NCBI GenBank assembly: GCA_017446745.1
Contig: JAFSQF010000044.1
Location: forward strand, 1-34,349
Reading direction: 5' to 3'
DNA: 34,349 nucleotides
Source of the DNA: Bacteroidales bacterium
GTDB taxonomy: Bacteria > Bacteroidota > Bacteroidia > Bacteroidales > P3
The notes under the pieces were generated by a model. The model ran no database searches, was not told the origin of the DNA, and saw only the letters and a program-made list of their open reading frames with translations. This document shows positions 15,447 through 34,323 of the stretch, piece by piece. Each line of letters opens with the position of its first letter. Position 1 is the first letter of the stretch. Made by a program: the position numbers and the translations under genes.

Positions 15447-15607
15447 TAAGTAAACGGTCAAAATTAGCGCTCATATTCTTTTAACAGCAATTAACAGCAA
15501 TTAACAGCAATTAAACAGCAATTATCCAGAAATTATTTATAGAACGTGAATGACCATGAATGCCCGTGAATTATCATAAATGTCAAATAAATTTGACTAA
15601 TTACTTA
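15447..15607 (-). mobile_element. MITE-like decamer-phased element, copy A (full length, 161 bp)
   Basis: A full copy in reverse orientation relative to copies B-E. Its ends are imperfect inverted repeats: TAAGTAATTAGTCAAATTTA at the left and, as reverse complement of the right end, TAAGTAAACGGTCAAAATTA, matching at 16 of 20 positions. Internal parts from the left: palindrome GTCAAATTTATTTGAC, three 10-bp units of the type ATTCACGGGC, a spacer, about four 10- or 11-bp units TTAATTGCTG, then a unique tail. It lies between corA and the nucleoside hydrolase; the palindrome end points at the latter, with 50 bp between element and ATG. No clear target duplication is seen. Confidence 0.85.
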
Positions 15608-15657
15608 TCGAGGCGAATACATTGTACTAACTTTAACTAATAACAGACTAAAGAACA

Positions 15658-16674
15658 ATGAAAAACATTACCTTACTACTTATTATAGCTTTTGTACTTG
15701 CCAGCTGCAAGAACGAGAATTCTACTGCACCGTCCGACATTCCTCTCGTAATCTTCGACACTGACATAGGTTCTTCAACCGACGACCTCTTCGCGCTCGA
15801 GATGCTTTACCGTTACCACGACGAAGGTCTATGTCGGCTGCTGGGCGTGGTAGTGGACAGGGAGGGTGAGCACTGCGCTGCCTGCGCCGACGTGATGAAT
15901 ACCTACTACGGGCATGGCGACATACCTATTGCCCTGGTTCGCGATGGTATCGACAACCCAATGGTATGGATTGACTACAAACCTCTTCCCTCCTACACCA
16001 ATCCCGACGGCACTCCAATGTTCGCACGTTCCGTCGATGACTACGCGTCGCTTCCCGACGGTTGGCAGCTCTACAGGCGTCTGCTGTCGGCACAACCGGA
16101 TCATTCTGTAAGCATCGTCAGTGTGGGCTTCGTAACATGCCTGGCTCAGCTGCTTCAGTCAGAAGCAGACAACTATTCGCCACTCAACGGCGTGGACCTG
16201 GTACGGCAAAAGGTGAAATGCGTCTATATTATGGGCGGCGTCTTCGGGGCATCAGAAGAACCCGACTTCAATTTCAGCCAAGGCATCAGCTTCGCCCAAA
16301 CTTTCTTCGAACTCTGGCCCTCGGATGTCGACATGGCCTTCTCACCCCAAGAGGTGGGCGAAAAAGTTGAATATACACCAGATATGGTGACAACCGACAT
16401 CAGCTGGACTGACGTGCACCCCATCAAACAAGTATACATGAACTGCGACTGCAACACTGGACAACGTATGTGGGACCCCATGGCCGTGATTCATGCCGTT
16501 GAGGGCGATGAGGCCTTCACGCTCTCCGGGCGCGGCACTGTCAGCATAACCCCCAACGCGGAAACGCATTTTACACCAACGCCCACAGGCAATGCCCGCT
16601 TCCAAATTGCCGGCACTACAGAATGGGCAGACTCCATGCTACAGAAAATACGTACCTCGACGCTCCGCCACTAA
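15658..16674 (+). CDS. Lipoprotein nucleoside hydrolase (IU_nuc_hydro family)
   Basis: A predicted lipoprotein: residues 1-17 are a signal peptide with lipobox L-A-S-C, Cys17 being the lipidation site. The mature part looks like an inosine-uridine-type nucleoside hydrolase, which cleaves the N-glycosidic bond of ribonucleosides. The N-terminal calcium-binding motif appears as D-T-D-I-G-S-S-T-D-D-L-F-A, with a spacing longer than the textbook D-T-D-P-G-x-D-D. I-M-G-G-V-F and W-D-P-M-A-V provide the later conserved strand and metal Asp. Length (338 aa) fits. A cell-surface or periplasmic salvage role is inferred. It is convergent with the cyclo-ligase gene; the 88-bp gap has no obvious terminator. 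Confidence 0.82.
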   Translation: MKNITLLLIIAFVLASCKNENSTAPSDIPLVIFDTDIGSSTDDLFALEMLYRYHDEGLCRLLGVVVDREGEHCAACADVMNTYYGHGDIPIALVRDGIDNPMVWIDYKPLPSYTNPDGTPMFARSVDDYASLPDGWQLYRRLLSAQPDHSVSIVSVGFVTCLAQLLQSEADNYSPLNGVDLVRQKVKCVYIMGGVFGASEEPDFNFSQGISFAQTFFELWPSDVDMAFSPQEVGEKVEYTPDMVTTDISWTDVHPIKQVYMNCDCNTGQRMWDPMAVIHAVEGDEAFTLSGRGTVSITPNAETHFTPTPTGNARFQIAGTTEWADSMLQKIRTSTLRH

Positions 16675-16762
16675 AGATATTCCAAGAAATCAAGTCTCGA
16701 AGCATTGCCCGATGTGTAATCCTGAGCACGACGCTTCTGAAGTGCCGCAGACAGCATAGGCC

Positions 16763-17293
16763 TTAACAAACAACGAAATCCATAGGAACGTCGAATGGTT
16801 CGGTGGGGATAGCGTCAAACAGCTGGAAGGGGAAAGCCACGCCCACCTTTATGGCATTGGGGGTAGTCTTCAGCAGGCGGTCGTAGAAGCCTCTCCCCCG
16901 CCCCATGCGGTTGTTGTGGGTGTCGAAAGCCATGCCGGGAACAACGATCATCTGTATTTTCTCCAGTTGGTCGAAAACAGGGCCTGTAGGTTCGGGGATG
17001 CCAAACTGAGGGCCTGGTTTCATGCTTTCGGGTCCGGAATACTGCCGGAGCAGCAGGTCGTTGCCCTCCACGCAAGGCAGCAGAAGATATTTCTTATCGA
17101 ACCAACGACGGACGAAATCATGAGTATACACCTCGTCGTCCATAGACCAATACAGTAACACAGTGGAGACGTTGCTCCATAGAGGCAACATCTCCACTTT
17201 ATGCATAATGGGGATAGAGAGCTCTTTTTTCTCGTCCAACGAATAGCGTCTCTTCTCTGCCCTTACCAGACGGCGAAGTTCAGTCTTGTCCAT
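16763..17293 (-). CDS. 5-formyltetrahydrofolate cyclo-ligase
   Basis: This ATP-dependent cytoplasmic enzyme returns 5-formyl-THF to the folate pool as 5,10-methenyl-THF. The 176-aa protein has the family motif V-P-G-M-A-F-D-x-x-x-x-R-M-G-R-G-R-G-F-Y-D-R, where the glycine-rich loop binds ATP. K3 and the R-A-E-K-R-R segment match the N-terminal nucleotide-contact region. The ATG at 17293 comes 3 bp after the stop of the DUF3127 gene, so the two are cotranscribed. Confidence 0.93.
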   Translation of the reverse strand: MDKTELRRLVRAEKRRYSLDEKKELSIPIMHKVEMLPLWSNVSTVLLYWSMDDEVYTHDFVRRWFDKKYLLLPCVEGNDLLLRQYSGPESMKPGPQFGIPEPTGPVFDQLEKIQMIVVPGMAFDTHNNRMGRGRGFYDRLLKTTPNAIKVGVAFPFQLFDAIPTEPFDVPMDFVVC

Positions 17294-17296
17294 GGC

Positions 17297-17734
17297 TTAG
17301 AAAGGGAGGTCGTCGTCGGAACCGGCGGGTTGGCTTGCAAACGCTGGGCCGGCAGGAGCGGCAGGGGCTGCGGCCATGGGCTGTGAGGCCATAGGAGCAG
17401 CGGCCATGGGCTGTCCTGCAGGGGCGGCAGCGGCCATGGGCTGTCCTGCCACCGGGGCAGCACCGGTGAAAGGCACCACACGAATGCAACGCAGGTCGGT
17501 ATACCAACGCTCTTGATATTCGCGGGATTCCGGCGAGAAGGTGACCACCACGGGGGCGTTGAGGACGAGGGTCTGAAGCATGGCAAGACGGTCTTCGCCA
17601 AAAAGGGTGAAGGCTACCTGACGCGGATAGGTATCATCAGTCTCGACAACAAAACCGCCACGAACCCAAGGGCCACGCTGCGACTCACCGCGCACTTCGG
17701 GCAAAATCTTTATTAATCTTCCTGTAAGTTCCAT
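17297..17734 (-). CDS. DUF3127 protein with SSB-like acidic C-terminal tip
   Basis: A 145-aa protein of unknown function. Residues 1-88 (M-E-L-T-G-R-L-I-K-I-L-P-E ... F-T-L-F-G-E-D-R ... F-S-P-E-S-R-E-Y) match the pattern of the DUF3127 family of Bacteroidetes, which I recognise as OB-fold-like. Residues 90-135 are Ala/Gly/Pro/Gln/Met-rich, with G-Q-P-M-A-A-A repeated. The end, D-D-D-L-P-F, closely resembles the D-D-D-I-P-F tip with which bacterial single-stranded DNA-binding proteins recruit replication and repair partners. The architecture (OB-like domain, flexible linker, acidic tip) is that of SSB. A role on single-stranded nucleic acid is inference. It is followed directly by the cyclo-ligase gene. 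Confidence 0.8.
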   Translation of the reverse strand: MELTGRLIKILPEVRGESQRGPWVRGGFVVETDDTYPRQVAFTLFGEDRLAMLQTLVLNAPVVVTFSPESREYQERWYTDLRCIRVVPFTGAAPVAGQPMAAAAPAGQPMAAAPMASQPMAAAPAAPAGPAFASQPAGSDDDLPF

Positions 17735-17742
17735 AGAGAGTA

Positions 17743-17782
17743 TTATTTAATTGTTTTATTGTTTTATCGTTTTATTGTTCCT
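17743..17782 (-). repeat. Octamer-periodic leader of the DUF3127 gene
   Basis: Read on the plus strand: TTATTTAA, TTGTTTTA, TTGTTTTA, TCGTTTTA, TTGTTCCT, five 8-bp units. On the coding strand this is an A-rich leader (TAAAACAA type) ending 8 bp before the ATG. Confidence 0.65.
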
Positions 17783-17800
17783 TTCGCATAGAAAAGAAAT

Positions 17801-17809
17801 GCAAAAATA
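17801..17809 (-). promoter_or_regulatory. Candidate -7 box for the DUF3127 / cyclo-ligase operon
   Basis: On the minus strand the sequence is TATTTTTGC, a full match to TAnnTTTG, 66 bp upstream of the ATG. A TTG lies 14 bp further upstream, closer than the usual -33 spacing. Confidence 0.45.
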
Positions 17810-17843
17810 CACAAAAAGAACGACAATGGATTGTATAGACACA

Positions 17844-17867
17844 AAAAAAGTTATCAACAACTTTTTT
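17844..17867 (-). terminator. AT-only hairpin, possible terminator of sdaA
   Basis: A perfect 9-bp inverted repeat, AAAAAAGTT and AACTTTTTT, has a 6-nt loop, 103 bp after the sdaA stop. The 3' arm itself supplies the T run in either direction. The stem is weak, so termination is uncertain. Confidence 0.3.
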
Positions 17868-17907
17868 CTTGCCGGGCGAGGAGTGCCGTGAAGTAGAATG
17901 CACGCGA

Positions 17908-17929
17908 TGACGCGCACTTTCCCGCGTCA
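17908..17929 (-). other. GC-rich hairpin downstream of sdaA
   Basis: A perfect 7-bp inverted repeat, TGACGCG and CGCGTCA, encloses 8 nt and lies 41 bp after the sdaA stop. No T tract follows on either strand. It may slow polymerase or protect the sdaA transcript end. Confidence 0.4.
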
Positions 17930-17970
17930 GCACCTGCGTACAAGAGGGGAACGGCAGCCAAGGAAGAGGG

Positions 17971-19161
17971 CTATGCAAGCAGAGCAAGGCCTCCCATGGC
18001 TGTCTCTTTGTAAAGGCTGGGGAGGTCTTTGCCTGTCTTTTTCATGGTTTCCACCACCTTGTCGAACGAAATAATATGTTTGCCATCGCTCATCATGGCA
18101 TAGAGGTTGATGTCGAGGGCTCGGAGTGCTGCCATTGCATTGCGTTCGATGCAAGGGATCTGAACCAGCCCACACATGGGGTCGCAGGTAAGGCCGAGGT
18201 TGTGTTCCATAGCCATCTCAGCGGCATACTCGATCTGCTGTGGACTGCCGCCGAAGAGCTGATTGGCGGCGACGGCGGCCATAACGCATGCCGAGCCCAC
18301 CTCGCCTTGGCACCCCACCTCGGCACCGGAGATGGATGCATTGGTCTTGATGACGTTGGCAAAAAGAGCGGCAGTGGCCATAGCACGCACTATCTCCACA
18401 TCGCTGAAACCATGGTTTTTCTTCAGATGGTAGAGCACCGCGGGCAGTACGCCGCTGGAGCCGCATGTGGGAGCCGTGACAATGGTGCCACCCACTGCAT
18501 TACGTTCGCTGGTGGCCAGAGCATATGCTATGACCAGACAACGGCTCTGGAGCGAAGGTTTATAGCTGGAGGCTCGAACATAGTATTGGTGCGCCTTGCT
18601 GCGTAGATGCAGCCCGCCAGGGATAACTCCTTCGGCAACAAGACCATCCTCTATAGTGTGTTGCATAGCCTCCCACATTTCCTGAAGGTATTCCCAGATA
18701 TCCTTGTCCTCGTGCAAGGCCACATACTCCCAGAAAGTAAGACCCTCATGCTCAATATACGATAAAATATCGGTGATATGTGAGAGCTCATAAACCTGCT
18801 GAGAGTCCTCGCTGCCCTCTTCGTTGGCAAGGAGCCCTCCGCCAATGCTATAGATCTTCCAGGATGCGGAGACGTTGTTTTCTTCGTCCAAAGCCTCGAA
18901 GAGCATACCGTTGGTGTGAAACTCGGGCACGATGTCTGGCCGCCAAACGATCTGAACAGGAATAGGGGCCAGAGCATCTGTTATGGCCACATCGGTACGG
19001 TGCCCCTTACCGGTGGCGGCAAGGCTCCCATAAAGGGTTACACGACAGCTGGCAGCATTGGCATGGCGTTCGTGGAATAGCGAGGCGGCGCGATGAGGCC
19101 CCAGGGTGTGGCTGCTCGATGGGCCGTAGCCTTTCTTTAGAATTTGTTTAATGGATACCAC
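17971..19161 (-). CDS. sdaA: L-serine ammonia-lyase (single-chain, iron-sulfur type)
   Basis: It converts L-serine to pyruvate and ammonia in the cytoplasm using an oxygen-sensitive [4Fe-4S] cluster. The 396-aa protein fuses the beta domain (N-terminal G-Y-G-P-S-S-S-H-T-L-G-P, substrate loop) and the alpha domain in one chain. Cluster cysteines are expected among A-P-T-C-G-S-S-G-V, C-D-P-M-C-G and I-P-C-I-E-R-N, all present. The start is GTG at 19161: upstream codons in frame contain no ATG before a stop. Its leader has four 8-bp units (19171-19202) that run into repeat element copy B. Confidence 0.93.
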   Translation of the reverse strand: MVSIKQILKKGYGPSSSHTLGPHRAASLFHERHANAASCRVTLYGSLAATGKGHRTDVAITDALAPIPVQIVWRPDIVPEFHTNGMLFEALDEENNVSASWKIYSIGGGLLANEEGSEDSQQVYELSHITDILSYIEHEGLTFWEYVALHEDKDIWEYLQEMWEAMQHTIEDGLVAEGVIPGGLHLRSKAHQYYVRASSYKPSLQSRCLVIAYALATSERNAVGGTIVTAPTCGSSGVLPAVLYHLKKNHGFSDVEIVRAMATAALFANVIKTNASISGAEVGCQGEVGSACVMAAVAANQLFGGSPQQIEYAAEMAMEHNLGLTCDPMCGLVQIPCIERNAMAALRALDINLYAMMSDGKHIISFDKVVETMKKTGKDLPSLYKETAMGGLALLA

Positions 19162-19170
19162 AGAAAGTAT

Positions 19171-19202
19171 GTTTAATTGTTGATTTGTTCAGTTAAGTAA
19201 TT
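19171..19202 (-). repeat. Octamer-periodic leader of sdaA
   Basis: Plus-strand units GTTTAATT, GTTGATTT, GTTCAGTT and AAGTAATT follow each other in strict 8-bp phase. The last unit is also the first bases of repeat element copy B (from 19194). Confidence 0.5.
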
Positions 19203-19341
19203 AGTCAAATTTATTTGACATTTACGATAATTCACGGGCATTCATGGTCATACACGTTCTATAAATAATTGCTGTTAATTGCTGTTAATTGCTGTTAATT
19301 GCTGTTAAAAGAATATGAGCGCTAATTTTGACCGTTTACTT
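19194..19341 (+). mobile_element. MITE-like decamer-phased element, copy B (full, 148 bp)
   Basis: Both ends of the element are present. It is 13 bp shorter than copies A and D, mainly because the segment TTTCTGGATA before the decamers is missing. Four TTAATTGCTG-type units are present. It lies between the porin stop and the sdaA start with the palindrome end facing sdaA. A stray ATAAGTAATCAGTC at the very end of the porin gene (19370-19383) resembles the left tip. Confidence 0.85.
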
Positions 19342-19376
19342 GTAATCGATTGTTTGTTGTTTAATTGTATAAGTAA

Positions 19377-21527
19377 TCAGTCGAAGAATTTCCAAATGAC
19401 GCCCCAGTAGAGGCCAAAATCCTCCATTGGATAATGTGGGAGAGAGAAATAGTTGGGAGTCAAGCCTGCCAGGTCTTCGATGGCGGCGTTGAAATGGCTG
19501 GCCTTGAGGTAGATGCTGGCGCGCTTGATCTGAAGCGTGAGCCAGAAATCGGCCACCAAATAACCGCCCACTTTCACATCATCCTGACGATACCAGGCTG
19601 CGAGGATGGGATTCCAGGCGTCGGCTTTAAAAGGCGAGTGATAGCGCAGGTCAAAGCCGGCCTGCATACGCAGGGTGTTTCGGAATAGGGTGAAGTCGGC
19701 ATAGAAACTGTTCTTGCTGGCAAACAAGGGGGCGCGCACCACGTTGTCGTCGCTGCTGTACTGGAGCATCTGCTGAGTTCTAATGTTAAACCAGCCGAAA
19801 CGCAGCTGGGCTAAAGCCTGGGTCTGCAAGAGCATGGCAGAAGCATCACCTTGAGAAGGTTGCATACTGGCATCCAGCCAAATATTATCGGATACAAGCG
19901 AGGCACTGGCTCGAGTTTGCAGGATACGAAGATGACCGCCGACGCTGTCGGGCTTGTTCATACTGTAGGCAAACGCCAGCTGCTGCCGCTTCACCTTGCG
20001 GAAATCGCTGTTGTCCCACGCATAGCAGCCCACGTTGTAGTAATAGAGCCAATCGGGCGACAGGGCCTGGCTAAGTGCGGCAAGATTCATGACGCTGAAG
20101 CGGCCAAGACGAAGCTCGATATTGGCCTGGAGGCGATAGTCGCCGTTGCGTTCGCCACCTGTAACCTCCTCACCACGCGCCAAAAGGCTGAACCGACCCA
20201 CATCGAGAGAGGCCTGCGCAAAAGGGGTGACGGAAAAGAAAGATTTTTTCCCGGCAACATAACTGATATTGTTCAATTCAGGCCTAATGCCAAACAGCAG
20301 CACAAAGGGGTTGTGCCAGCGATGGTTCATATAGGCGTCATTGGTCCAGTAGAGGTCGGCGCTGAGTTGATAATGAGTCGTAGAGTCATAATAGACAGAG
20401 GTGTCGAGGTTCGCGAAAGTATAGAACCAGCTGTCGGGCTGAATGTCGGAGAAGATGCGACGATGGCGAGCCAGATGGAGGTCGAAGCCGAAGACGCCTG
20501 AGTTGTAGGAGTGAGGAGCTCGCGGGAGCAGAGTGTCGTAGCCTGCTATGGAGTCGTAGGCTCCGGAGGAGTCCACAACGGAGACGATGCGAGGGCGCAC
20601 CTGCTGGAACTGACGCACGGTGTTGAGGCTCTGATGAAGGTCGAGTACAAGGTCGCGCCACTGGTTTTGAGCGTAGTACATATTAACAGGGATACCCTGT
20701 CGACGGGCGCCCGACATCCAGGTGGTGTCGTCGAGAAGTCCACCATTCTCTTCCTGCCGCATACGGTTGAAGGAGAGGGCTGCCTGGAGTTGATAGCGAG
20801 CGTCGGAGCTGTAATAGTTGGTGGTAAGGTCGACGATGTGGTTCGTACCACCGTCATTGGTATAAACGCCGTCGCGGCTGGTGAGGTCGTAGCGCAATGC
20901 GAAGTTCCAGCGGGGTTTGATGTTCTGCGTGTGCACCACTCCAATCTGGTAGTCCTTATTGAGCGAACTGCCATACCGCAGCATGGTGTAGGGCTTGTGG
21001 GTCTGAAACATAGAGAAGCGGTGCAACCTTTGGCGAAAAACGGGGAAAGGGTCGGTTTGCAGAGTGAAAGCAAGCGGGCATGAGGGCTCATGGAACGAGA
21101 GGAGCCTCATCGTTTCCAAGGCGAAAGGAGCCAGGTCGGTATGGGCTTGCCCCAAGGCTCCGCGGTCGGCATAAAAAAAGCCGTCGATGCCATGCACCGG
21201 ATTGAAGAACTCGACACCATGGGGTGATATGAGCGGATGCTGAACCTCATAGACTTTCACAGCTCTGAAGGCTGGCATGAAATTGTTCACCATGGCGGAG
21301 AGCATCGAGTCGCTCTCCGAGGCAACTTCATAGATAATACCCTCAGGTTCTTTATTTTGCGAACTGTCAGGGTCGTTATAATTGTTATTGTAGGTGTTGT
21401 CCGACGAATTGGGCAGATTCCTCGAAAGCTTGGAGACATCGATTTGAGCTACAGTGAGAGAAGGGCATAGCAGAAAGAGTGCCGCAAGAAGCACGAGACA
21501 AGGAAGCCTATGAAGAAGATAGCGCAT
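19377..21527 (-). CDS. Putative outer-membrane porin (Porin_10 type)
   Basis: A large outer-membrane beta-barrel candidate of 716 aa. The signal peptide spans about residues 1-27 (M-R-Y-L-L-H-R ... L-T-V-A-Q). The body is rich in alternating aromatic/hydrophobic strands with Tyr, Trp and Asn, and it ends in an aromatic cluster, W-K-F-F-D. Features such as the N-terminal Asn/Asp-rich linker, D-Y-Q-I-G-V-V-H-T-Q-N and R-Y-D-L-T-S-R-D-G-V-Y-T-N-D match the putative porins of Bacteroidetes. The frame also allows a TTG one codon upstream (21530), but the ATG at 21527 is preferred. It starts 21 bp after trxB and is probably cotranscribed with it. The transported substrate is unknown. Confidence 0.8.
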   Translation of the reverse strand: MRYLLHRLPCLVLLAALFLLCPSLTVAQIDVSKLSRNLPNSSDNTYNNNYNDPDSSQNKEPEGIIYEVASESDSMLSAMVNNFMPAFRAVKVYEVQHPLISPHGVEFFNPVHGIDGFFYADRGALGQAHTDLAPFALETMRLLSFHEPSCPLAFTLQTDPFPVFRQRLHRFSMFQTHKPYTMLRYGSSLNKDYQIGVVHTQNIKPRWNFALRYDLTSRDGVYTNDGGTNHIVDLTTNYYSSDARYQLQAALSFNRMRQEENGGLLDDTTWMSGARRQGIPVNMYYAQNQWRDLVLDLHQSLNTVRQFQQVRPRIVSVVDSSGAYDSIAGYDTLLPRAPHSYNSGVFGFDLHLARHRRIFSDIQPDSWFYTFANLDTSVYYDSTTHYQLSADLYWTNDAYMNHRWHNPFVLLFGIRPELNNISYVAGKKSFFSVTPFAQASLDVGRFSLLARGEEVTGGERNGDYRLQANIELRLGRFSVMNLAALSQALSPDWLYYYNVGCYAWDNSDFRKVKRQQLAFAYSMNKPDSVGGHLRILQTRASASLVSDNIWLDASMQPSQGDASAMLLQTQALAQLRFGWFNIRTQQMLQYSSDDNVVRAPLFASKNSFYADFTLFRNTLRMQAGFDLRYHSPFKADAWNPILAAWYRQDDVKVGGYLVADFWLTLQIKRASIYLKASHFNAAIEDLAGLTPNYFSLPHYPMEDFGLYWGVIWKFFD

Positions 21528-21548
21528 CAATGGATAGTCACTTGAATA

Positions 21549-22475
21549 TCAGCTATGCAGGAACCGTTCCACGTCGATGGCGGCCACGCAGCCTTTAGCA
21601 GCAGCCACGCAGGCCTGCCGATAGTTGGGGTCGCAGACATCACCGGCGGCGAAAACACCCTCCACACTTGTGGCGCTGGTGGGATTCTTCACCTTGATAT
21701 AGCCTGCCTCGTCAAGATCAAGTTGTCCGTCGAGGAAGGCTGTGTTGGGCTGATGGCCGATGGCAACGAAGAAGCCAGCGATGTCGAGGCGTGTCACCTC
21801 GCCGGTCTTTACGTTCTTGATGTCGGCGCCGACGACGCCATCCATGTCGTTACCCACAATTTCCTGAGTGACGCTGTTCCAAAGCACCTGAATCTTAGGG
21901 TTATCGAGGACGCGATGTTGCATAGCCTTTGAGGCACGGAGTTCGTCGCGGCGGACGATCTGGTAGACTTTTCGGCAGAGGGTGGCGAGATAAGCGGCCT
22001 CCTCGCATGCGGTGTCGCCACCGCCAACAACAGCCACATCAAGGTTTTTGTAGAAGAAGCCGTCGCAGGTGGCGCATGCCGAGACACCCTGACCATAGTA
22101 TTTCTTCTCGCTATCAAGTCCAAGCCAGCGTGCCGAAGCCCCCGTAGCAACCACAACGGTCTCGGCCTCAATCTCATTACCCTTATCGTCGATGGCTATG
22201 AAAGGGCGTTTGGAGAGGTCTATTTTCTCGATGGTACCCTGTCGCATCTCCGTTCCGAAGCGAAGAGCCTGCTTGCGGAGGTCATCCATCATGGCGGTGC
22301 CAGAGATACCGTCGGGATAGCCCGGGAAATTCTCTATTTCGGTGGTGATAGTAAGCTGTCCGCCGGGTTGGAGCCCTTCGTAGAGAAGGGGTTTAAGGTC
22401 GGCGCGGCCAGTGTAGATACCGCAAGTGTAGCCGGCAGGACCGGAACCAATGATTAAGCAACGTGTATGTGTCAT
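21549..22475 (-). CDS. trxB: Thioredoxin-disulfide reductase
   Basis: This cytoplasmic flavoprotein passes electrons from NADPH to thioredoxin. It has 308 aa, the usual length. The FAD fold is I-I-G-S-G-P-A-G-Y-T. The redox-active pair is C134-A-T-C137. The NADPH fold is V-V-G-G-G-D-T-A (about residues 149-156), and G-V-F-A-A-G-D-V-C-D is the C-terminal FAD segment. The 164-bp upstream gap is AT-rich and probably holds its promoter; I see no clean -7 box there. Confidence 0.95.
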   Translation of the reverse strand: MTHTRCLIIGSGPAGYTCGIYTGRADLKPLLYEGLQPGGQLTITTEIENFPGYPDGISGTAMMDDLRKQALRFGTEMRQGTIEKIDLSKRPFIAIDDKGNEIEAETVVVATGASARWLGLDSEKKYYGQGVSACATCDGFFYKNLDVAVVGGGDTACEEAAYLATLCRKVYQIVRRDELRASKAMQHRVLDNPKIQVLWNSVTQEIVGNDMDGVVGADIKNVKTGEVTRLDIAGFFVAIGHQPNTAFLDGQLDLDEAGYIKVKNPTSATSVEGVFAAGDVCDPNYRQACVAAAKGCVAAIDVERFLHS

Positions 22476-22639
22476 GGGAATTAAAGATTTATATTTTATA
22501 TTATTTTCTTTTATATAAGCCAGCGTTTAATAACTAACTACATTCAGCCTATTATTTAATCATCTGATTTACACACAACAATTCAACAGCCACACATTTC
22601 TACAAAAAACATAACCGCTCAACAGAGCAACAAGAGCGA

Positions 22640-24490: not shown

Positions 24491-24504
24491 AGGCAAAAAT
24501 TTTT

Positions 24505-24513
24505 GCAAAAGTA
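24505..24513 (-). promoter_or_regulatory. Candidate -7 box for the panD operon
   Basis: The minus-strand sequence TACTTTTGC matches TAnnTTTG, 14 bp upstream of the chosen panD ATG. It predicts a very short leader. No clear -33 element is seen in the A/T-rich sequence upstream. Confidence 0.45.
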
Positions 24514-24535
24514 CAGAAAAAAAATGATATGAGAG

Positions 24536-25091: not shown

Positions 25092-25205
25092 TAAGAAATT
25101 AGTCAAATTTATTTGACATTTACGATAATTCACGGGCATTCATAGTCATTCACGTTCTATAAATAATTTCTGGATAATTGCTGTTTAATTGCTGTTAATT
25201 GCTGA
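25092..25205 (+). mobile_element. MITE-like element, copy C (right end missing)
   Basis: The left tip (TAAGAAATTAGTC), palindrome, attcac-type decamers and three TTAATTGCTG-type units are present; the unique tail and right inverted repeat are absent. The copy stops within the decamer block and copy D begins at the next base. The left end faces the start codon at 25039, 52 bp away. Confidence 0.8.
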
Positions 25206-25366
25206 TAAGTAATTAGTCAAATTTATTTGACATTTACGATAATTCACGGGCATTCATGGTCATTCACGTTCTATAAATAATATCTGGATAATTGCTGTTT
25301 AATTGCTGTTAATTGCTGTTAATTGCTGTTAAAAGAATATGAGCGCTAATTTTGACCGTTTACTTA
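25206..25366 (+). mobile_element. MITE-like element, copy D (full length, 161 bp)
   Basis: A complete copy, equal in length to copy A, with both inverted-repeat ends (left TAAGTAATTAG, right ACCGTTTACTTA). Joined head-to-tail to truncated copy C, it makes a 275-bp block. The 443-bp gap between the C-terminally anchored protein gene and the lipoprotein gene is filled by copies C and D plus a terminator; no gene is seen in it. Confidence 0.85.
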
Positions 25367-25403
25367 AGAAAAACTCAGTTAGGTGAAAAATATTGTGCGA
25401 AAT

Positions 25404-25438
25404 AAAAAATCCCCGAGGAACAGAGGCGTCATCAGGGA
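25404..25438 (-). terminator. Intrinsic terminator of the ECF sigma operon
   Basis: On the minus strand a stem TCCCTGA / TCGGGGA (one G-T wobble) with a ~15-nt loop is followed directly by TTTTTT. It lies 44 bp after the stop of the last lipoprotein gene and closes the four-gene operon. Confidence 0.65.
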
Positions 25439-25482
25439 CTTCTACGGAGCAGAACCGGGAGCGGTATTTATTGTATGTCAGT

Positions 25483-27086: not shown

Positions 27087-27367
27087 ACTTCAGTAATTAG
27101 CATATCGTTGGCCACATCGAGCCAATGGCTGTCGGAATAGCCGCTACGGTTGCAAGCCACCGAATCGTAGGCCTGGGGGTCTGGCGACGAGGCGAACCAG
27201 ACGGAGAGGCCGACGACAGAGGCCACCATAAGCGATGCAGCGATGTTGCGGCGTTGCCGACGGCGACGGTTCCAGGCGGGGAACTGGCCGGAAAGGCGCG
27301 CCGACATTCCTTTCACCGTCTCTTGTTGCCAGAGTTTCTCAAATTCTTCGTCGGTAAGTTTTTTCAT
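27083..27367 (-). CDS. Small single-pass membrane protein, putative anti-sigma factor
   Basis: A 94-aa protein encoded directly after the sigma factor with an ATGA overlap. Residues 1-40 are charged and cytoplasmic in character (M-K-K-L-T-D-E-E-F-E-K-L-W-Q-Q-E; later R-R-R-R-Q-R-R). One hydrophobic helix follows, at about 42-60, then a short outer segment with one Cys. It lacks the H-x-x-x-C-x-x-C zinc motif of ZAS anti-sigma factors. Position, size and topology are the grounds for the anti-sigma proposal, which is inference. Confidence 0.6.
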   Translation of the reverse strand: MKKLTDEEFEKLWQQETVKGMSARLSGQFPAWNRRRRQRRNIAASLMVASVVGLSVWFASSPDPQAYDSVACNRSGYSDSHWLDVANDMLITEV

Positions 27368-27864
27368 GTCATTAATTTTCTCAGTTTTTCTTTCAGGCGC
27401 ACCAGACGGACGCTGACATTCTTGACGGACATTTGCATTTGTGCCGCTATTTCTTCGTAGGAATAGCCTTGCAGCTGCAACCGCACCAAGGAGCTGTCGG
27501 GTTCGCCGAGGGTCGCTATCTGTTCGTGGAGGCTGTCCGACAAGGAGGTATCCTCTTCTAAGAGTGTCTCTTCCACCCCTGTTTCGATTGGCACATGCCC
27601 CGGCGTTCGCCTAAGGCAGTCGATGGCAGCATTGCGTCCCACGCGCCAGATCCATGCCGCCCGCTGAACACCGTCAGGCACCTGCCATAGCTTCTCGCGC
27701 TGGTTCCAGAGCGCGAGAGCGATTTCCTGCATCAGATCTTCCACCGTGGCCTCGCGGCTGCTGAATCGACTGCTCAACCTGAAAAGCAAGCCCTTGTAGC
27801 GAGACAAGACAGCCTCGAAAGCCCTGCTTTCATCGGGCGGAGTATAGTCGTCTGGTTGCTTCAT
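27364..27864 (-). CDS. ECF-type RNA polymerase sigma factor
   Basis: A 166-aa sigma-70 family protein with only regions 2 and 4. Region 2 is at about residues 15-85: R-Y-K-G-L-L-F-R-L-S-S-R, then V-E-D-L-M-Q-E-I-A-L-A-L-W, then A-W-I-W-R-V-G-R-N-A-A-I-D. Region 4 is a helix-turn-helix near the end (L-Q-L-Q-G-Y-S-Y-E-E-I-A-A-Q-M-Q-M-S-V-K-N-V-S-V-R-L). It directs RNA polymerase to a small regulon, often including its own operon. It starts the ATGA-coupled four-gene operon, 54 bp after fcl, a gap that could hold its promoter. Confidence 0.92.
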   Translation of the reverse strand: MKQPDDYTPPDESRAFEAVLSRYKGLLFRLSSRFSSREATVEDLMQEIALALWNQREKLWQVPDGVQRAAWIWRVGRNAAIDCLRRTPGHVPIETGVEETLLEEDTSLSDSLHEQIATLGEPDSSLVRLQLQGYSYEEIAAQMQMSVKNVSVRLVRLKEKLRKLMT

Positions 27865-27918
27865 TCGTCTATAAGAACGCTAATAAGACGTAAAAAACTA
27901 CAGAGCCACGAAAAAAAA

Positions 27919-28860
27919 TCATCGGCAGGCACGAACGGGGTTGTTGAGGAAGTCGGCGTAGCTAAGGCGAATGCCTTGCTCAAGAGGTGTGGTATAGTGC
28001 CATCCCATGGCAGTGGCCTTGCTGACATCGAGGAGTTTACGGGGAGTACCGTTAGGCCTGGAAGTGTCCCATTCTATGGTGCCCTTAAAGCCTACAATAC
28101 GGGCCACCATTTCCGACAACGCTTTGATAGATATCTCTTTGCCAGTGCCGGCATTGACGGTTTCGTTGCCGCTATAATTGTTCATCAGGAAGAGGCAAAG
28201 GTCGGCAAGGTCGTCGACATACAAGAATTCGCGCAGAGGGCTGCCATCGCCCCAGCAAACCACCTTTTCAAGATGCTGCTCCTTGGCCTCGTGGAAACGA
28301 CGAATCAAAGCCGGGAGGACATGGCTATGCTCGGGGTGGTAGTTGTCGTTAGGGCCGTAGAGATTGGTGGGCATCACGCTGATGAAGTCGGTGCCATACT
28401 GTCGGTTGAGATATTCGCAATACTTAAGACCGCTGATTTTGGCGAGGGCGTAGGCCTCGTTGGTGGCTTCCAGGCTGCCGGTGAGGAGGCAGGCCTCAGG
28501 CATGGGCTGAGGGGCGAGACGCGGATAGATGCAGCTGCTGCCAAGGAACTCGAGTTTCTTCACACCATGACGCCAAGCGGCATTGATAACATTCATCTCG
28601 AGCATCATATTCTGATACATGAAATCAGCCGGGGCTTTATTGTTGGCTACGATACCGCCAACCTTAGCAGCGGCGAGAAATACATATTCCGGCTTTTCGG
28701 TGGCGAAAAAATTCTCGACATCGCTCTGGTTTGTGAGGTCGAGCTGGGCATGCGGACATGTCACGAGGTTGGAATAGCCCTGCCGTTGCAGCTGCCGCAC
28801 TATGGCGCTGCCTACCATTCCCTTATGGCCAGCAACATAGATTTTAGAGTTTTTGTCCAT
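27919..28860 (-). CDS. fcl: GDP-L-fucose synthase
   Basis: An NADPH-dependent epimerase/reductase that turns GDP-4-keto-6-deoxy-D-mannose into GDP-L-fucose. The 313-aa short-chain-dehydrogenase-like protein has [12 protein letters not shown] for dinucleotide binding and the catalytic Y-A-L-A-K (YxxxK) preceded by [26 protein letters not shown] is typical of Fcl. It follows gmd by 42 bp and completes the same pathway, presumably for surface glycans or glycoproteins. Confidence 0.95.
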
Positions 28861-28902
28861 TTTTGAATAAAGTACGGGGTTGGAGAGAGAGAGTGTGTGT
28901 GG

Positions 28903-29955
28903 TTATTTTACGGTTTCGAGATCATGTTTCACCATAATTTTCACCAGGTCTTCAAAGCTGGTTTTTTCCGGGTCCCAGCCCAGTCGGCGTTTTGCCTTGG
29001 AGGGGTCGCCAAGGAGTTGGTCGACTTCGGCGGGGCGGAAATACTTGGGGTCGACCTCTACCAGCACCTTGCCGGTGCGTCTGTCAACGCCACGCTCGTC
29101 AACCCCACGGCCGAACCAGTTCAGCTCGATGCCAGCCTCGCGGAAAGCCAAAATGCAGAAATCGCGCACAGAATGGTAGTGGCCGGTGGCAATGACGTAA
29201 TCGTCGGGCTTGGGCTGCTGCAACATAAGCCACATGCACTCTACGTAATCGCGTGCGTAGCCCCAATCACGCAAGGCGTTGAGATTGCCGAGATAAAGCT
29301 TATCTTGGAGCCCTTTCGCGATGCGAGCTGCCGCCAAGGTAATCTTGCGGGTGACGAAGGTCTCGCCGCGGCGTTCGCTCTCGTGGTTGAAGAGGATGCC
29401 ATTACAGCAGTACATACCATAACTCTCGCGATAGTTTTTCATAATCCAGTAGGCGTAGAGCTTCGCCACGCCATAGGGGGAACGGGGATAGAAAGGGGTG
29501 GTCTCGCACTGAGGCACTTCCTGAACCTTGCCAAAAAGCTCGGAGGTGGAAGCCTGATAGATGCGGCAGGTGTTGGCAAGGCCGGCGATACGGACAGCCT
29601 CGAGGAGACGCAGAACGCCCAAAGCATCGGCATCGGCGGTGAACTCCGGGACATCGAACGACACCTTGACGTGGCTCTGCGCCGCGAGGTTATAGATCTC
29701 GTCGGGTCTTACCTCGCTGATTATGCGAATGAGCGAGCTGCTGTCGGTCATATCGCCCCAATGCAGATTCACGAGGCGGCGTTGCCGCATGTCGCGCACC
29801 CATTCGTCGAGGTAGAGATGCTCGATACGACCGGTGTTGAAGGACGAACTGCGTCGCATTATGCCATGCACTTCATAGCCTTTATCTATAAGAAATTCAG
29901 CCAAGAAAGAACCATCCTGACCTGTGATACCTGTAATGAGCGCTTTTTTATTCAT
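28903..29955 (-). CDS. gmd: GDP-mannose 4,6-dehydratase
   Basis: The first step of GDP-L-fucose synthesis, producing GDP-4-keto-6-deoxy-D-mannose. The 350-aa protein has [15 protein letters not shown] for NADP binding and R-R-S-S-S-F-N for the substrate/cofactor contact. [11 protein letters not shown] and Y-G-V-A-K hold the catalytic Thr/Glu and YxxxK. The ATG at 29955 places the beta-alpha-beta fold at residue 5. Its leader shows an 8-bp periodic TTAT motif (at 29960, 29968 and 29976). The 123-bp spacer to the ABC transporter has no other feature I can support. Confidence 0.96.
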
Positions 29956-30078
29956 AGGATTATCTCTTTATTGTTTTATACATTAATAGTGCTGTAATTC
30001 AGTTTTTTTTGCTATGTGTCGCCACTATGGGACTATCATTAGGCACAATTTAATAGTGAACAATCACTTTGTCTACTA

Positions 30079-31713
30079 TCACTCCTCGGTGTGGCGGATA
30101 AGAAGAATAATATGGTCTGGTTTTAATTTATCAAGGGTTTGACGGAACTGGCGGCGAGCGGCCACATCCATCCATGCCGTGGGCTCGTCGAATATTAGCA
30201 CCGGGGCACGGGAGAAGAGCTGGCGAGCCAGAGCTATACGTTGCCACTGTCCCATGCTGAGCTCCTCGCCATGATCGAACTGGCGCCCCAGGGGGGTGTC
30301 GAGCCCCTTGCTGAGTTTTGCCACCACCCCGTCGGCGTCGGCCAATTCAAGAGCTTCGGCCAAACGGCGCGCATCGTCGGCATTGTCGACATCGCCAAAG
30401 ACTACATTCTCGCGGGCGGTGAAATAGAACTGCACATAGTCCTGAAAGATGGCACTGACATTGCGGCGCAACGTAGGCACGTCGAACTGACGGATATCGA
30501 TGCCATTTATGCGGATTGCACCCTGCTGCGGGTCGTAGAGACGCAGCAAAAGTTTGAGCAGGGTAGTTTTCCCGAAGCCGTTCTCACCCCCGATAACAGT
30601 CACCTCACCGCGACGCGCCGTGAGCGAGAAATGGCTCACGGTGGGCTGTTTCATGTCGGGATAAGAAAACGTGACATCGTCGAAACGCACCTCCTCAACC
30701 CACGCAGGAAAGGCCGTAGGATTGGCGGGCGAGAGTATGGAGGGCTTGAGTTCCAAGAACTCGAACAAGTTATTGATGAAAAGCTTATGCTCATACAGCC
30801 CGCTGATGCCTGACACCAGACTGCCGAGATAGGACTGTCCGCGCCGGAAGGCCTCGAAAAGCATAACAAAGGTACCAATAGTCAAAGCCCCGCCCACCAC
30901 GGGTTTGACGAGGAAAAAAAGCACAAGCCCGAGGGCCAAGGCCTCGACCAAAGCGGTGATGGCATCGTAGACGGCAAGACGTCGCGAGATGGCAAGCAGC
31001 TGGGTCACAAGACTACGGCGTATTTCTACATAGCAGCCGCGGAAATAATCGGCCAGCCCAAACGAACGCACCTCTTTGGCAAAATTGCGATTGGTGAGCA
31101 ACGAGCCATAGTAGTTGCTTCGACGCATCAACTGGGTGGTTTCGCGACGGAAGCGGTAAATGCGTCGCGACTTATAGAGTTTGACGCAGAAGGTGGGCAC
31201 CACGGCCACCACCATCACAACGATGACCTGCCAGGACGAAGCAAGCAGCATGGCCGCGACACCCGCCAAGGATATGACCGAGCCAACCAGCTGGACCATA
31301 TTTTCCAGAATACGTATCGGACGGAAGGCGGCCTCCTGCTGGGCTCGGTGGAAGGTGTCGTGGAACTCAGGATTATCGTAGTAGGCCATGTCGAGACGCA
31401 CCGACTGGGTCTGTATCTTGTCATTGATATAGTCAATAAGCCGCTGTGTCAGGACATCATTGTTCACTGCACTGACAACATTTATCAAGCGATTGAGAAG
31501 GGTGATAACGCAGAAAGCCAGGAGCGACTGCAGCAACAACGAATCTCGCAGCATGAAACCATCAACGGTGGCCGCTGCCGTCACTTCATCGACTATCAGT
31601 TTCAAGACATAGAGATTAGCCAATGGCAACAAACTGTTACACACTGTATAGAAAAGCTTGAGGAGAAAGCTTCTCTTGTCGCATCGCCATATTAGCTTAA
31701 AGGCTTCTTTCAT
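30079..31713 (-). CDS. ABC exporter, fused permease and ATPase (short C-terminus)
   Basis: A 544-aa half-transporter: an N-terminal six-helix membrane domain (about residues 18-320), then an ATPase domain. Walker A is G-G-E-N-G-F-G-K-T-T (K382). The Q-loop is I-F-Q-D-Y. The signature reads L-S-M-G-Q (485-489) instead of L-S-G-G-Q. Walker B is V-L-I-F-D-E, with D-loop W-M-D rather than A-L-D. The chain ends three residues after the H-loop His (I-R-H-T-E-E, His541), whereas most exporters continue for about 40 residues. No frame downstream continues the domain, so I treat the end as genuine. The substrate is unknown. Confidence 0.85.
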   Translation of the reverse strand: MKEAFKLIWRCDKRSFLLKLFYTVCNSLLPLANLYVLKLIVDEVTAAATVDGFMLRDSLLLQSLLAFCVITLLNRLINVVSAVNNDVLTQRLIDYINDKIQTQSVRLDMAYYDNPEFHDTFHRAQQEAAFRPIRILENMVQLVGSVISLAGVAAMLLASSWQVIVVMVVAVVPTFCVKLYKSRRIYRFRRETTQLMRRSNYYGSLLTNRNFAKEVRSFGLADYFRGCYVEIRRSLVTQLLAISRRLAVYDAITALVEALALGLVLFFLVKPVVGGALTIGTFVMLFEAFRRGQSYLGSLVSGISGLYEHKLFINNLFEFLELKPSILSPANPTAFPAWVEEVRFDDVTFSYPDMKQPTVSHFSLTARRGEVTVIGGENGFGKTTLLKLLLRLYDPQQGAIRINGIDIRQFDVPTLRRNVSAIFQDYVQFYFTARENVVFGDVDNADDARRLAEALELADADGVVAKLSKGLDTPLGRQFDHGEELSMGQWQRIALARQLFSRAPVLIFDEPTAWMDVAARRQFRQTLDKLKPDHIILLIRHTEE

Positions 31714-31776
31714 TTAACTGCTTAATTGTTGAACTGCTCAACTGCCAAATCATTAAATTGCAAATCATCTAATTAC
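31713..31776 (-). repeat. Octamer-periodic leader of the ABC exporter gene
   Basis: Plus-strand units: TTTAACTG, CTTAATTG, TTGAACTG, CTCAACTG, CCAAATCA, TTAAATTG, CAAATCAT, CTAATTAC. The motif AACTG or AATTG recurs at exact multiples of 8 bp. The leader fills the 59-bp spacer to the NfeD gene. Confidence 0.65.
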
Positions 31777-33128
31777 ACTCCAACTATCGGCTTCACGACA
31801 AGACTTCCATTGACATAGTCGACCACCAGCACCGGCTTTCCGGCATCGATATAGCCCATCTGAGCCACAGCATCGTAGGGTTGGCCATCGATGACAATCT
31901 TCCCTGCCGGGCGAAGGATGGACTCTGCCACACCCTGATGGCCTATCATAGAGCGGATATGCTCGTCGGCCACGGTGAACCCCTCTTTGGAGTCGACTTC
32001 TGTATTCAATGCCAAGCCGCCGAAGAGGTTGCTCTCGAAGAGTTTCTTTCCGAAATAGAGGCCAAGCAGCAGGGCAGCCACAAGCGCCAGCAGGGTAATC
32101 ATGAGACTGATGGAGATGGAGTGAGCCGACACGGCCGAGAAGTCGAGGCCATCGTTGCCAAGCATGCTGAACATCAATCCTGTGGCAAGGCATATTATTC
32201 CTGAGATGCCGGCGACACCGAAGCCCGGAATAATGAATATCTCTAAGATGATGAGCACTATACCCACGAAGAAGAGTATTATTTCCCAATAGGATGCGAG
32301 ACCCTCGAGATAAAGAGGGGCGAAATAAAGTGCCGCAGCTATTAGAGCCAAAATCAGGGGGAAGCCTATGCCCGGCTGCTGCAGCTCAAAATAGATACCT
32401 CCGATTATCAGCATGATAAGGATGCCCGACACTATGGGATTAACAAGGAAACCTATAACCTTATCGATGAACGTATAGCGTTGTTCGTGGAGCGAATACT
32501 TCTCAATGCCGGCATGCTTAAGCAACTCGTGAAGACTCTCGACTTCGGCCTCGCAGTAGCCATGTTCTATAGCCTCGGCTGTGGTGAACGTCAACACCTT
32601 GCCACTGTCGCAAATACCCTCTACATAGATATCTGGATCCACCATGGCTTGTGCTATGTCAGGCCGGCGCCCTTTGGCTTCCGCGGTGGTGCGCATCAAC
32701 GACCGCATATAGCTTTGGTACTTGTCGGGCTGGACGGCTCCAGTCTGGTCGACAACGGTAGCGGCACCTATCGATGAGCCGCTGTGCATGAAAATAGAAT
32801 CGCACGCCAGGGAGATGAGGGCGCCTGCCGATGCCGCATTATTGTCGATATATGCCCATACGGGTATGGGCGACTGCAGAAAGGCTGTGCGGATCTTGTC
32901 GGCATCGTCAAGGGTTCCTCCAAAGGTATTGATATGTACCACTATAAGATTGGCTTCCATTTCCTTTGCCTCTTGCAAGGCTTTCTCTACCCGCAACGAT
33001 GCGGGGGGCGCAATCTCCTCATCAATATGGAAATAGTACACCTTTTGCTTCTCATTTCCCGCTAAAGAATAGGCGGTCTGGAAAAAGAAAAAAGAGAAAA
33101 ATGCTGCAAATAAAAAGAAACGTTTCAT
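31773..33128 (-). CDS. NfeD-family membrane serine protease (long form, ClpP-like)
   Basis: A 451-aa protein: signal peptide (1-23), a ClpP/crotonase-like protease domain (about 28-220), four or more membrane helices (about 235-385), and a C-terminal OB-like NfeD domain. The candidate catalytic Ser is S100 in N-N-A-A-S-A-G-A. The candidate Lys is K136 in P-D-K-Y-Q-S-Y, similar in spacing to the Ser-Lys dyad known for the archaeal 1510-N protease. Relatives act in membrane-protein quality control, often with stomatin-like partners; none is seen in this window. The frame extends to 33260 inside the IMPase gene, but the ATG at 33128 gives the signal peptide. Confidence 0.88.
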   Translation of the reverse strand: MKRFFLFAAFFSFFFFQTAYSLAGNEKQKVYYFHIDEEIAPPASLRVEKALQEAKEMEANLIVVHINTFGGTLDDADKIRTAFLQSPIPVWAYIDNNAASAGALISLACDSIFMHSGSSIGAATVVDQTGAVQPDKYQSYMRSLMRTTAEAKGRRPDIAQAMVDPDIYVEGICDSGKVLTFTTAEAIEHGYCEAEVESLHELLKHAGIEKYSLHEQRYTFIDKVIGFLVNPIVSGILIMLIIGGIYFELQQPGIGFPLILALIAAALYFAPLYLEGLASYWEIILFFVGIVLIILEIFIIPGFGVAGISGIICLATGLMFSMLGNDGLDFSAVSAHSISISLMITLLALVAALLLGLYFGKKLFESNLFGGLALNTEVDSKEGFTVADEHIRSMIGHQGVAESILRPAGKIVIDGQPYDAVAQMGYIDAGKPVLVVDYVNGSLVVKPIVGV

Positions 33129-33148
33129 AGGTATTGTTCTGTTTTGTT

Positions 33149-33973
33149 TTAAAGACCAAAAGATTTGATAGCCTCCACCAACTGACTGAAAATAGCCGGA
33201 TTCGATGCCACCATCTCGGCGCCGTGGAGCCAATTGAAGCCGCCGTGGAAATCGCCGCAACGTCCGCCGGCCTTCTCAACGAGATAGGCACCGGCAGCCA
33301 CGTCGTAGGGTTTTAAGCCATACTCAAAGAAGCCATCGGCACGCCCGCAAGCCACATAGGCCAGGTCGGCAGCGGCCGAGCCCAACCGGCGCACGCCATG
33401 TGTGCCTGTCATAGTCCACTCCAACAACGACATATATTCTTTCAACTTACCGAAATCCTTGTAGGGGAAGCCCGTGGCTATCAAAGAATCATTCAAGGAA
33501 GCCGACCTCGACACCTGCATGGCTTTTCCGTTAAGGCTGGCTCCCTCCTGATCGGCAGAAGCCGAGAAGCACTCGCGGCCCCACAGCTCGTAGACCACGC
33601 CAAGCAGCATCACGGGGCGTTGCGCCTCGACGGACTGCCGGTTGTCCTGCAACGCTATAGATATACACGTCGGTGGAAAAGCATGGATGAAGTTGGTGGT
33701 GCCATCAATGGGGTCTATAATCCACGTATAACGCTCAGTACCCAAGCGTCCGGCACTACCCTCCTCGGCAATAAACCCTCCTTCGGGCAACAGCCGACGC
33801 AAGCGCTGCACGATGCGACGCTCCGACTCGCGGTCGAAGCGGGTGACGTAGTCGTGCACGCCCTTGCTCTCTGCTTCTACTCCCTCCACCTGGCGTCGTT
33901 CCTGAACCAACCACTCGCCAACCTCGCTGGCAAGCTCGCTAATCTCATGACATAAAAATCGTGTGTCTATCAT
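33149..33973 (-). CDS. Inositol monophosphatase family protein
   Basis: An Mg2+-dependent, Li+-sensitive-type sugar phosphatase of 274 aa. Metal-binding motifs: E70-E71 in F-I-A-E-E-G; W-I-I-D-P-I-D-G-T-T-N-F with D87 and D90; and late K-P-Y-D-V-A-A-G. G-S-A-A-A-D-L-A-Y-V-A is also typical. The true substrate may be inositol phosphate, another sugar phosphate, or a SuhB-like regulatory role; sequence alone does not decide. It starts the IMPase-NfeD-ABC run, 20 bp ahead of NfeD. Confidence 0.92.
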   Translation of the reverse strand: MIDTRFLCHEISELASEVGEWLVQERRQVEGVEAESKGVHDYVTRFDRESERRIVQRLRRLLPEGGFIAEEGSAGRLGTERYTWIIDPIDGTTNFIHAFPPTCISIALQDNRQSVEAQRPVMLLGVVYELWGRECFSASADQEGASLNGKAMQVSRSASLNDSLIATGFPYKDFGKLKEYMSLLEWTMTGTHGVRRLGSAAADLAYVACGRADGFFEYGLKPYDVAAGAYLVEKAGGRCGDFHGGFNWLHGAEMVASNPAIFSQLVEAIKSFGL

Positions 33974-34012
33974 TGTTGATTTGTTTATTTGTTCTTTGAT
34001 TGCATTGAAATA
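33973..34012 (-). repeat. Octamer-periodic leader of the IMPase gene
   Basis: Plus-strand units TTGTTGAT, TTGTTTAT, TTGTTCTT, TGATTGCA and TTGAAATA start immediately at the start codon (the first T is the complement of the ATG's A). Confidence 0.6.
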
Positions 34013-34055
34013 TAATTCAGCTAAGCAATCATCAAAAAATAAGTTGATACAATAA

Positions 34056-34140
34056 AGCCCTGGAGGGGCTTACTCTCAATAACCCCGCACATAGTGTGGG
34101 GCTGTTGACAACCAATATTCTATGCGTTTCGTAGAAACGC
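34056..34140. repeat. Cluster of three short palindromes (hairpins)
   Basis: Three different hairpins in 85 bp: AGCCC-TGGAG-GGGCT (34056-34070); CCCCGCAC-ATA-GTGTGGGG (34083-34101, one wobble); and GCGTTTC-GTA-GAAACGC (34124-34140). The 3-nt loops with TA recall the TAC loop of the array after frdB. With copy E it occupies the 376 bp right of the IMPase gene, where no coding frame is supported. Confidence 0.75.
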
Positions 34141-34208
34141 GCTCTCATTTTATCCATCATATTACCTTATTTTTTTACCGTTGCTAAAGACTATGCTGTT
34201 TTATTATA

Positions 34209-34323
34209 TAAGTAATTAGTCAAATTTATTTGACATTTACGATAATTCACGGGCATTCATGGTCATTCACGTTCTATAAATAATTTCTGGATAATTGCTG
34301 TTAATTGCTGATAATTGCTGTTA
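34209..34323 (+). mobile_element. MITE-like element, copy E (right end missing)
   Basis: Left tip TAAGTAATTAG, the palindrome, attcac-type decamers, TTTCTGGATA and three TTAATTGCTG-type units are present; then the sequence diverges (TTAGTGACAATG). Like copy C it lacks the unique tail and right inverted repeat. The palindrome end faces the IMPase gene 236 bp away. Confidence 0.8.

Follow-up and report, generated by a model that had tools for sequence, protein, structure and literature searches.

The window analysed here, the whole 34,349-nucleotide contig JAFSQF010000044.1 of a Bacteroidales bacterium (assembly GCA_017446745.1), carries five copies of a short repeat that is very probably a miniature inverted-repeat transposable element (MITE) dependent on IS630: a non-coding element of about 130-162 bp that would have been placed in TA dinucleotides by an IS630-family transposase acting in trans. 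The repeat is present in many copies with inverted ends, some of its insertions have empty counterparts, further subfamilies have like ends, and the left end of an IS630 insertion sequence (IS) in a genome of the same genus matches MITEs. Since the ends of the repeat match those of this IS630-type element of a close relative, it was most likely moved by such an enzyme, and a transposase of this IS630 subgroup probably moved, or still moves, the copies in the window's own genome. In the mechanism that we propose, a MITE with the imperfect ends TAAGTAANNNNTCAAA would be inserted at TA by an IS630 (Tc1/mariner-type) transposase supplied in trans, presumably by cut-and-paste. A preliminary description of the window had proposed a MITE-like family from the sequence; the short length, the lack of coding capacity, the number of copies, the inverted ends and the TA duplication at empty sites agree with that proposal, to which the link with IS630 can be added. 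This names a probable driver for an abundant repeat in the little-studied, uncultured Bacteroidales.

The copies in the window and their parts are as follows; copies A, B and D were established by alignment and genome search.

15447-15607, minus strand: copy A, complete 161-bp element
19194-19342, plus strand: copy B, complete, its length below that of copy A by 12 bp, or about one repeat unit
25092-25207, plus strand: copy C, left part only, copy D being inserted at a TA of its decamer array
25206-25366, plus strand: copy D, complete 161-bp element, used as the reference copy
34209-34323, plus strand: copy E, left part, a second repeat being inserted at the decamer TA 34322-34323
25206-25226, plus strand: left terminal inverted repeat of copy D, TA followed by AGTAATTAGTCAAATTTAT, agreeing with the right end at 16 of 20 positions
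25346-25366, minus strand: right terminal inverted repeat of copy D, TA followed by AGTAAACGGTCAAAATTAG, reading inward
25216-25231, no strand: subterminal palindrome GTCAAATTTATTTGAC of copy D
25242-25271, plus strand: three ATTCANNNNN decamers of copy D, read from the sequence
25289-25332, plus strand: TTAATTGCTG decamer array of copy D, the number of units differing among copies
34322-34349, plus strand: start of the second repeat, which breaks into copy E and continues past the contig end

All five copies lie where the preliminary description had placed them, to within one or two bases at their 3' ends, and the inverted ends with 16 of the first 20 positions in agreement, the palindrome and the three decamers that it had reported are all seen in copy D. 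Its label of truncated for copies C and E has to be changed, as both are interrupted at a decamer TA, C by copy D and E by the second repeat. In the five-copy alignment the gaps in the shared part are confined to the variable block (12 columns for copy B and a single base for copy E), copies C and E have no tail, and the right part of copy C was not found downstream of copy D. Tandem Repeats Finder detects a repeat of about 10 bp in every copy (15481-15524, 19266-19308, 25175-25208, 25289-25332 and 34292-34323). Copy B ends in G rather than A (CTTG), and the left end of copy A lies 50 bp upstream of a nucleoside hydrolase gene (15658-16674). No open reading frame (ORF) of 90 or more amino acids in the window's ORF list falls inside any copy. 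The palindrome GTCAAATTTATTTGAC is found in the window's subfamily and is absent from relatives of the type seen in the same-genus genome G027, which have TCAAATTTATTTTACA instead (genomes, contigs and loci are given below as G, C and L numbers).

The window is contig C84 of G000, a metagenome-assembled genome (MAG) of 2.79 Mb in 117 contigs with a completeness of 91.86%. A search of this genome with copy D, a check that had been called for at the outset, returned at least 48 matches (40 of 100 first-look candidates were scored, and the figure is probably a lower bound). With up to three mismatches allowed, the 26-bp left end has 44 sites in the genome and the 24-bp right end 29, compared with none for either reversed control pattern, so that the repeat cannot be put down to chance; the pattern TAAGTNNNNNNTCAAA has 101 sites compared with 8 when reversed. 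Among the fetched loci there are 25 complete copies of the window's subfamily (subfamily 1), with lengths of 130, 140, 141, 149 and 162 bp (one copy each), 150 bp (seven), 151 bp (seven) and 161 bp (six), the steps between them being mostly about one repeat unit. Their pairwise identity, with gaps ignored, has a median of 95.4% and a range of 74-99.4%. On eight contigs (C14, C84, C95, C101, C102, C103, C108 and C116) copy D is matched no more than 30 bp from the end of the contig, and the repeat helps to explain where the MAG breaks into contigs.

A TA is present at the start of 21 of the 25 complete copies and at the end of 24. Agreement between the two flanks past the TA is sporadic (one base in 7/25, two in 3/25, three in 0/25 and four in 1/25), and no consistent duplication longer than TA is seen among these copies. 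For the empty-site test the flanks of 100 element pairs, 54 of them from the own genome, were joined around one TA and sought in the fetched loci; an uninterrupted spanning match was obtained for 17. Four own insertions have a single-TA counterpart in their own genome: L023 (#21; 88% over 68 bp) and L030 (#25; 97% over 34 bp), both inserted inside the second repeat, and L163 (#89; 96% over 82 bp) and L167 (#93; 100% over 53 bp). The last two are subfamily-2 copies (L163 1586-1736, L167 1523-1673) that have opposite orientations and a common target, one TA position of the same host repeat, which in the empty copy is L108:83-84. L018 (#14), which lies inside a G027-type MITE, has 23 counterparts, the best at 94% over 84 bp and none of them in its own genome, and L131 (#52) is a similar case within the RGIG2655 assembly. 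Filled sites have TA on both sides and empty sites have one TA; the preliminary description had recommended a search for empty sites in sister strains, and the sites obtained here are four in the own genome, one in another and one case inside RGIG2655, with a TA duplication. L157 (#79) was not counted, as it lies in decamer sequence that matches arrays generally (91 hits); of the other spanning matches, nine are tandem arrays matching themselves and #16 is a composite.

Some insertions lie within the repeat itself. The nested arrangement of copies C and D recurs on contig C26, where a remainder resembling the outer copy (ATTGCTGT) follows the inner copy. Copy E is broken at its decamer TA by a repeat starting TTAGTGACAATGAAAAAATAAGG, and the contig ends 26 bp further on. 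This second repeat has the ends TTAGTGAC..AAAAAATAAGG and, on the other side, TAAGCAATAAGTAAAAAATAAGTTGATACAATC; the same kind of repeat splits copies on C46 and C67, and the second family apparently also inserts at TA. TAs of TTAATTGCTG-type arrays are landing sites for some nested insertions. Judged by the sequence context, decamer sequence directly adjoins 5 of the 125 own-family ends and 4 of the 25 second-repeat ends on their outer side in the own loci, and 3 of 89 own-family ends in the contig loci of other assemblies; nesting in decamers is therefore recurrent, yet concerns a minority of insertions. The arrays may be slippage-prone filler that offers harmless TA targets, which would lead elements to nest in each other. 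Where the second repeat is seen in the window (34322-34349) and in L101, L102, L105 and L112, it has the ends TTAGTGAC..TAAAAAAATAAGG and TAAGCAATAAGTAAAAAATAAGTTGATACAATC with internal ATTCGTGT repeats, and contigs C84 and C116 end within it.

An exact scan of genome contigs with TAAGTAANNNNTCAAATTTATTTNACA, which may leave out the window's own genome, found 44 stretches. They come from 13 assemblies, each of which is titled Bacteroidales; five of these carrier assemblies are named for the rumen, omasum or rectum of goat, sheep, roe deer or yak. Relatives in other assemblies, some of them partial, have similar ends and frequently different interiors. G000 itself has at least two further subfamilies with shared ends: subfamily 2, with 44 matches of which some are subfamily-1 places, and a third (L169-L171, L173 and L174) with like ends and an interior of GCCCCGTAGGGGCG and CCGTGGGC blocks. 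Among 37 other genomes of the genus, TAAGTNNNNNNTCAAA is clearly enriched in G027 (24 sites, 7 reversed) and G029 (12 sites, 1 reversed); of 60 relatives, four gave weak matches, and those of G007 and G052 are unconvincing by eye. Certain insertions have common flanks between assemblies, for example L129/L158 and L146/L149, and part of the insertion set therefore looks inherited. In RGIG2655 the G027-type MITE of L118 and L141 has tandem duplications in its interior, several tens of bp in length, and in L127, L148 and L154, from UBA3724 and RGIG2655, an insert with inverted halves (GTAATAAGTGACCTGTGACAAG...) lies inside copies.

Targeting of TA pointed to IS630 as the transposase family. DDE_3 was sought in 49 genome entries, 36 of the same genus and 13 carriers, and was found only in G027 and G070, which have identical coordinates and are one genome. 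The element in question, L180:291-2482 of G027, is bounded by TAAGTAATTGTTCAAATTTAATTTACATATAAT and an inverted TAAGTAAGTAGTCAAAATTAAGCTGCATAATG and has TAAGTAA...TCAAA ends. Its minus strand carries a helix-turn-helix frame (Pfam HTH_32 and HTH_23), which scores 60.2 bits with the NCBIfam IS630 model, below the cut-off of 100, and a separate DDE_3 frame that scores 100.6 bits with the IS630 model (cut-off 100). By BLAST, the first 36 bp of the element are matched at 33 positions in eight MITE loci of the same genome, some of them partial, and at 31-32 positions in others, with no MITE match beyond the ends. The right 21 bp are matched in full in L204 and at 16-18 positions in L195, L199, L202 and L208; L198 carries a remnant of the right end of the L180 IS itself (36/36). 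Copy D agrees with these ends in register, its left end at 18/21 positions with the IS left end and its right end at 17/21 with the IS right end. Over the whole of L180, the two best places for the left 21 bp of copy D reach 18/21 each and the next 13/21, and for the right 21 bp the best places reach 17 and 16 of 21 and the next 14. A transposase gene with matching ends, which the preliminary description had suggested should be sought, is represented by the IS630 element of the same-genus genome, and none was found in G000.

At an E-value of 1e-20, 8 of the 393 genomes searched in the order contain relatives of the DDE fragment. Of 13 IS630 loci, seven are flanked by two TAAGT ends at a distance of 1066-1114 bp from each other: L182, and six from one genome, L184 and L190-L194. 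Six further IS630 relatives were examined, three from among 590 plasmid records and the full set of three loci from viral contigs, and both ends were seen in five: L211 (1109 bp apart, one mismatch in each end), L212 (1110 bp, 1 and 4 mismatches), L213 (1095 bp, 3 and 2), L214 of Runella (1096 bp, 2 and 3) and L216 of Hymenobacter (1088 bp, 4 and 2). The sixth, pBUN1 of Bacteroides uniformis (L215), has a single TAAGT end without mismatches. Most, though not all, of the IS630 relatives examined therefore end in TAAGT. Those with both ends (L182, L184, L190-L194, L211-L214 and L216) resemble the repeat in having TAAGT ends that start from a TA, but they carry a transposase; the left end of L180 is close to the MITEs of its own genome. 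The combination of TAAGT ends and a TA target provides a signature for annotating such MITEs and their IS630 parents. A search of the PDB with the IS630 fragment gave no hit up to E 1. On contig C57, two identical ends separated by 3.08 kb were considered as a possible autonomous element and proved to be two separate subfamily-2 copies; no transposase was recognised by eye in the frames between them, on which no family search was run.

Several observations weigh against dependence on IS630. Neither DDE_3 nor a relative of the L180 transposase was found in G000, an incomplete MAG (91.86%), and the autonomous partner in the same genome that would mark an IS630-dependent MITE was accordingly not found there. 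L180, the one transposase with closely matching ends that came up, is itself interrupted by an IS30-family transposase gene across the end of the DDE frame, and a working source was not seen. The right ends agree less well than the left: the L180 right end is matched at 15/21 positions in L143, and over 36 bp copy D agrees with L180 at 22 positions on the right compared with 28 on the left. No spanning match at all was obtained for 83 of the 100 element pairs. Among the 13 IS630 loci, three have one TAAGT end (L183, where the contig ends, L188 and L189) and three have none that can be placed (L185, L186 and L187). Further, L212, L213, L214 and L216 require 2-4 mismatches at one or both ends and chance hits occur at four, so that the case for the weaker ends depends on where they lie relative to the gene.

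A broader and more speculative proposal, which we think improbable though worth stating, is that one IS630 subgroup with TAAGT ends, itself distributed across Bacteroidota, maintains a guild of MITE families with unrelated interiors, the decamer blocks being a cis platform and not filler. If this were true, the guild would include the decamer, 20-bp-repeat, GCCCCGTAGGGGC and AATT 11-bp types in Bacteroidales of animals. The platform would give the transposase additional contacts and a series of TAs at which to land, with the effect that elements exploit one another as targets and accumulate into composite intergenic islands.

The repeat could instead be a regulatory one, kept because an outward promoter at its right end (TTG, 19-22 bp, TAnnTTTG, which we take to be of the Bacteroidetes type) switches on neighbouring genes. 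The outward motif is present at the right end in 21 of the 25 complete copies, compared with 15 of 1000 mononucleotide-shuffled sequences, and copies A, B, C and D of the window lie 32-166 bp from a gene start. However, the 21 motifs share one inherited site and hence are not independent; the left end, which is the one that faces gene starts in the window, has an outward motif in 0/25; and by eye the motif is absent from subfamily 2 (TAATTTAG) and from G027-type copies. An orientation bias towards genes, suggested by the left ends of copies A-D, was not clear in 36 own rows within 400 bp, where left ends face a start in 19 cases and a stop in 15 and right ends in 12 and 15 (the rows cover both subfamilies, one being the C-D composite, and the genes are flanking ORFs of at least 100 amino acids, often no more than 200 bp away). 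As the reason for the repeat, promoter activity is therefore unlikely, and a regulatory role is possible as a secondary one. It is considerably less likely that the AATT-phased decamers form a curved site for a nucleoid protein and that this function drove the spread of the repeat. The decamer block shows an AATT at intervals of 10-11 bp, and the AA/TT power at that period is high in copies A and D, where 3% and 6% of shuffles respectively reach it, but it is unremarkable in copy B (22%), subfamily 2 (12%), the G027 type (65%) and subfamily 3 (81%). In a wedge-model curvature prediction, the compaction of five AATT-rich elements was equalled by 12-25% of dinucleotide shuffles for the whole element and by 8-17% for the best 110 bp; with 8-25% of shuffles at least as compact, the intrinsic curvature that the preliminary description had suggested is not borne out. 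A structured RNA or RNA-processing element encoded by the repeat is less probable again: the inverted ends could pair, and four window copies lie close upstream of a gene start, but Rfam gives 0 matches at the gathering score in the window and the predicted folding of copy D does not surpass that of its dinucleotide shuffles (z -0.04 for one strand and -0.49 for the other).

Porphyromonas belongs to the Bacteroidales, as does the present host, and membership of the repeat in the BrickBuilt MITE type of that genus has to be weighed. BrickBuilt elements of P. gingivalis are likewise intergenic, with a leader, direct repeats variable in number, a tail and inverted ends (PMC4596501). Their ends (GAGACCTTCGCA) resemble ISPg1/ISPg9 and the IS5-family ISNme1, their repeat is 23 nt and their target duplications vary in length (PMC4596501), whereas the present repeat has TAAGTAA..TCAAA ends, a unit of about 10 bp and TA as its target. 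The likeness in architecture with a different sequence and unit, as noted in the preliminary description, therefore stands for the layout only; membership is refuted on ends, unit and target, and its likelihood is negligible.

The IS630-dependent MITE has its nearest precedent in the RUP element of Streptococcus pneumoniae, a host from a different phylum. RUP, for which mobilisation by IS630-Spn1 has been proposed, is also a short, non-coding intergenic repeat with TA-containing targets and ends that match an IS630-family element, and it too inserts into mobile elements (PMC2229807, PMC3049150). It differs in being 107 bp long, in that decamer arrays are not described for it in the portions of these papers considered, and in that several interiors with like ends occur here; the two are compared by description. 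To judge from this comparison the repeat would work like RUP, and no claim of RUP membership is made. A 2007 review singles out RUP as the bacterial repeat for which, exceptionally, an IS partner has been proposed (PMC2229807). The Correia elements of Neisseria, again compared by description and from another host, are abundant MITEs that often lie beside genes, and promoters within the element are documented for them, whereas here the promoter is a motif only (PMC10969869). No fitting IS630 MITE of Bacteroidetes, Bacteroidales or Bacteroides was found in the literature searches made, as judged by title and the start of the abstract. Plasmids and phages gave no match to copy D, and viral contigs gave 0 stretches with the exact end pattern. 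The repeat is thus apparently a new MITE family, as had been claimed: as far as these searches of Rfam, plasmids, phages, viral contigs and the titles and opening lines of abstracts go, no described family matches it exactly, and further copies do exist in the genome.

The window also contains other repeats. Upstream of a CorA-like gene, positions 13750-14288 hold about ten tandem GC-rich units of 54-56 bp that contain the palindrome ATCCCCTACGGGGAT, and at 8398-8576 the octamer AAACATCG is repeated about 22 times immediately upstream of an ORF at 8598.

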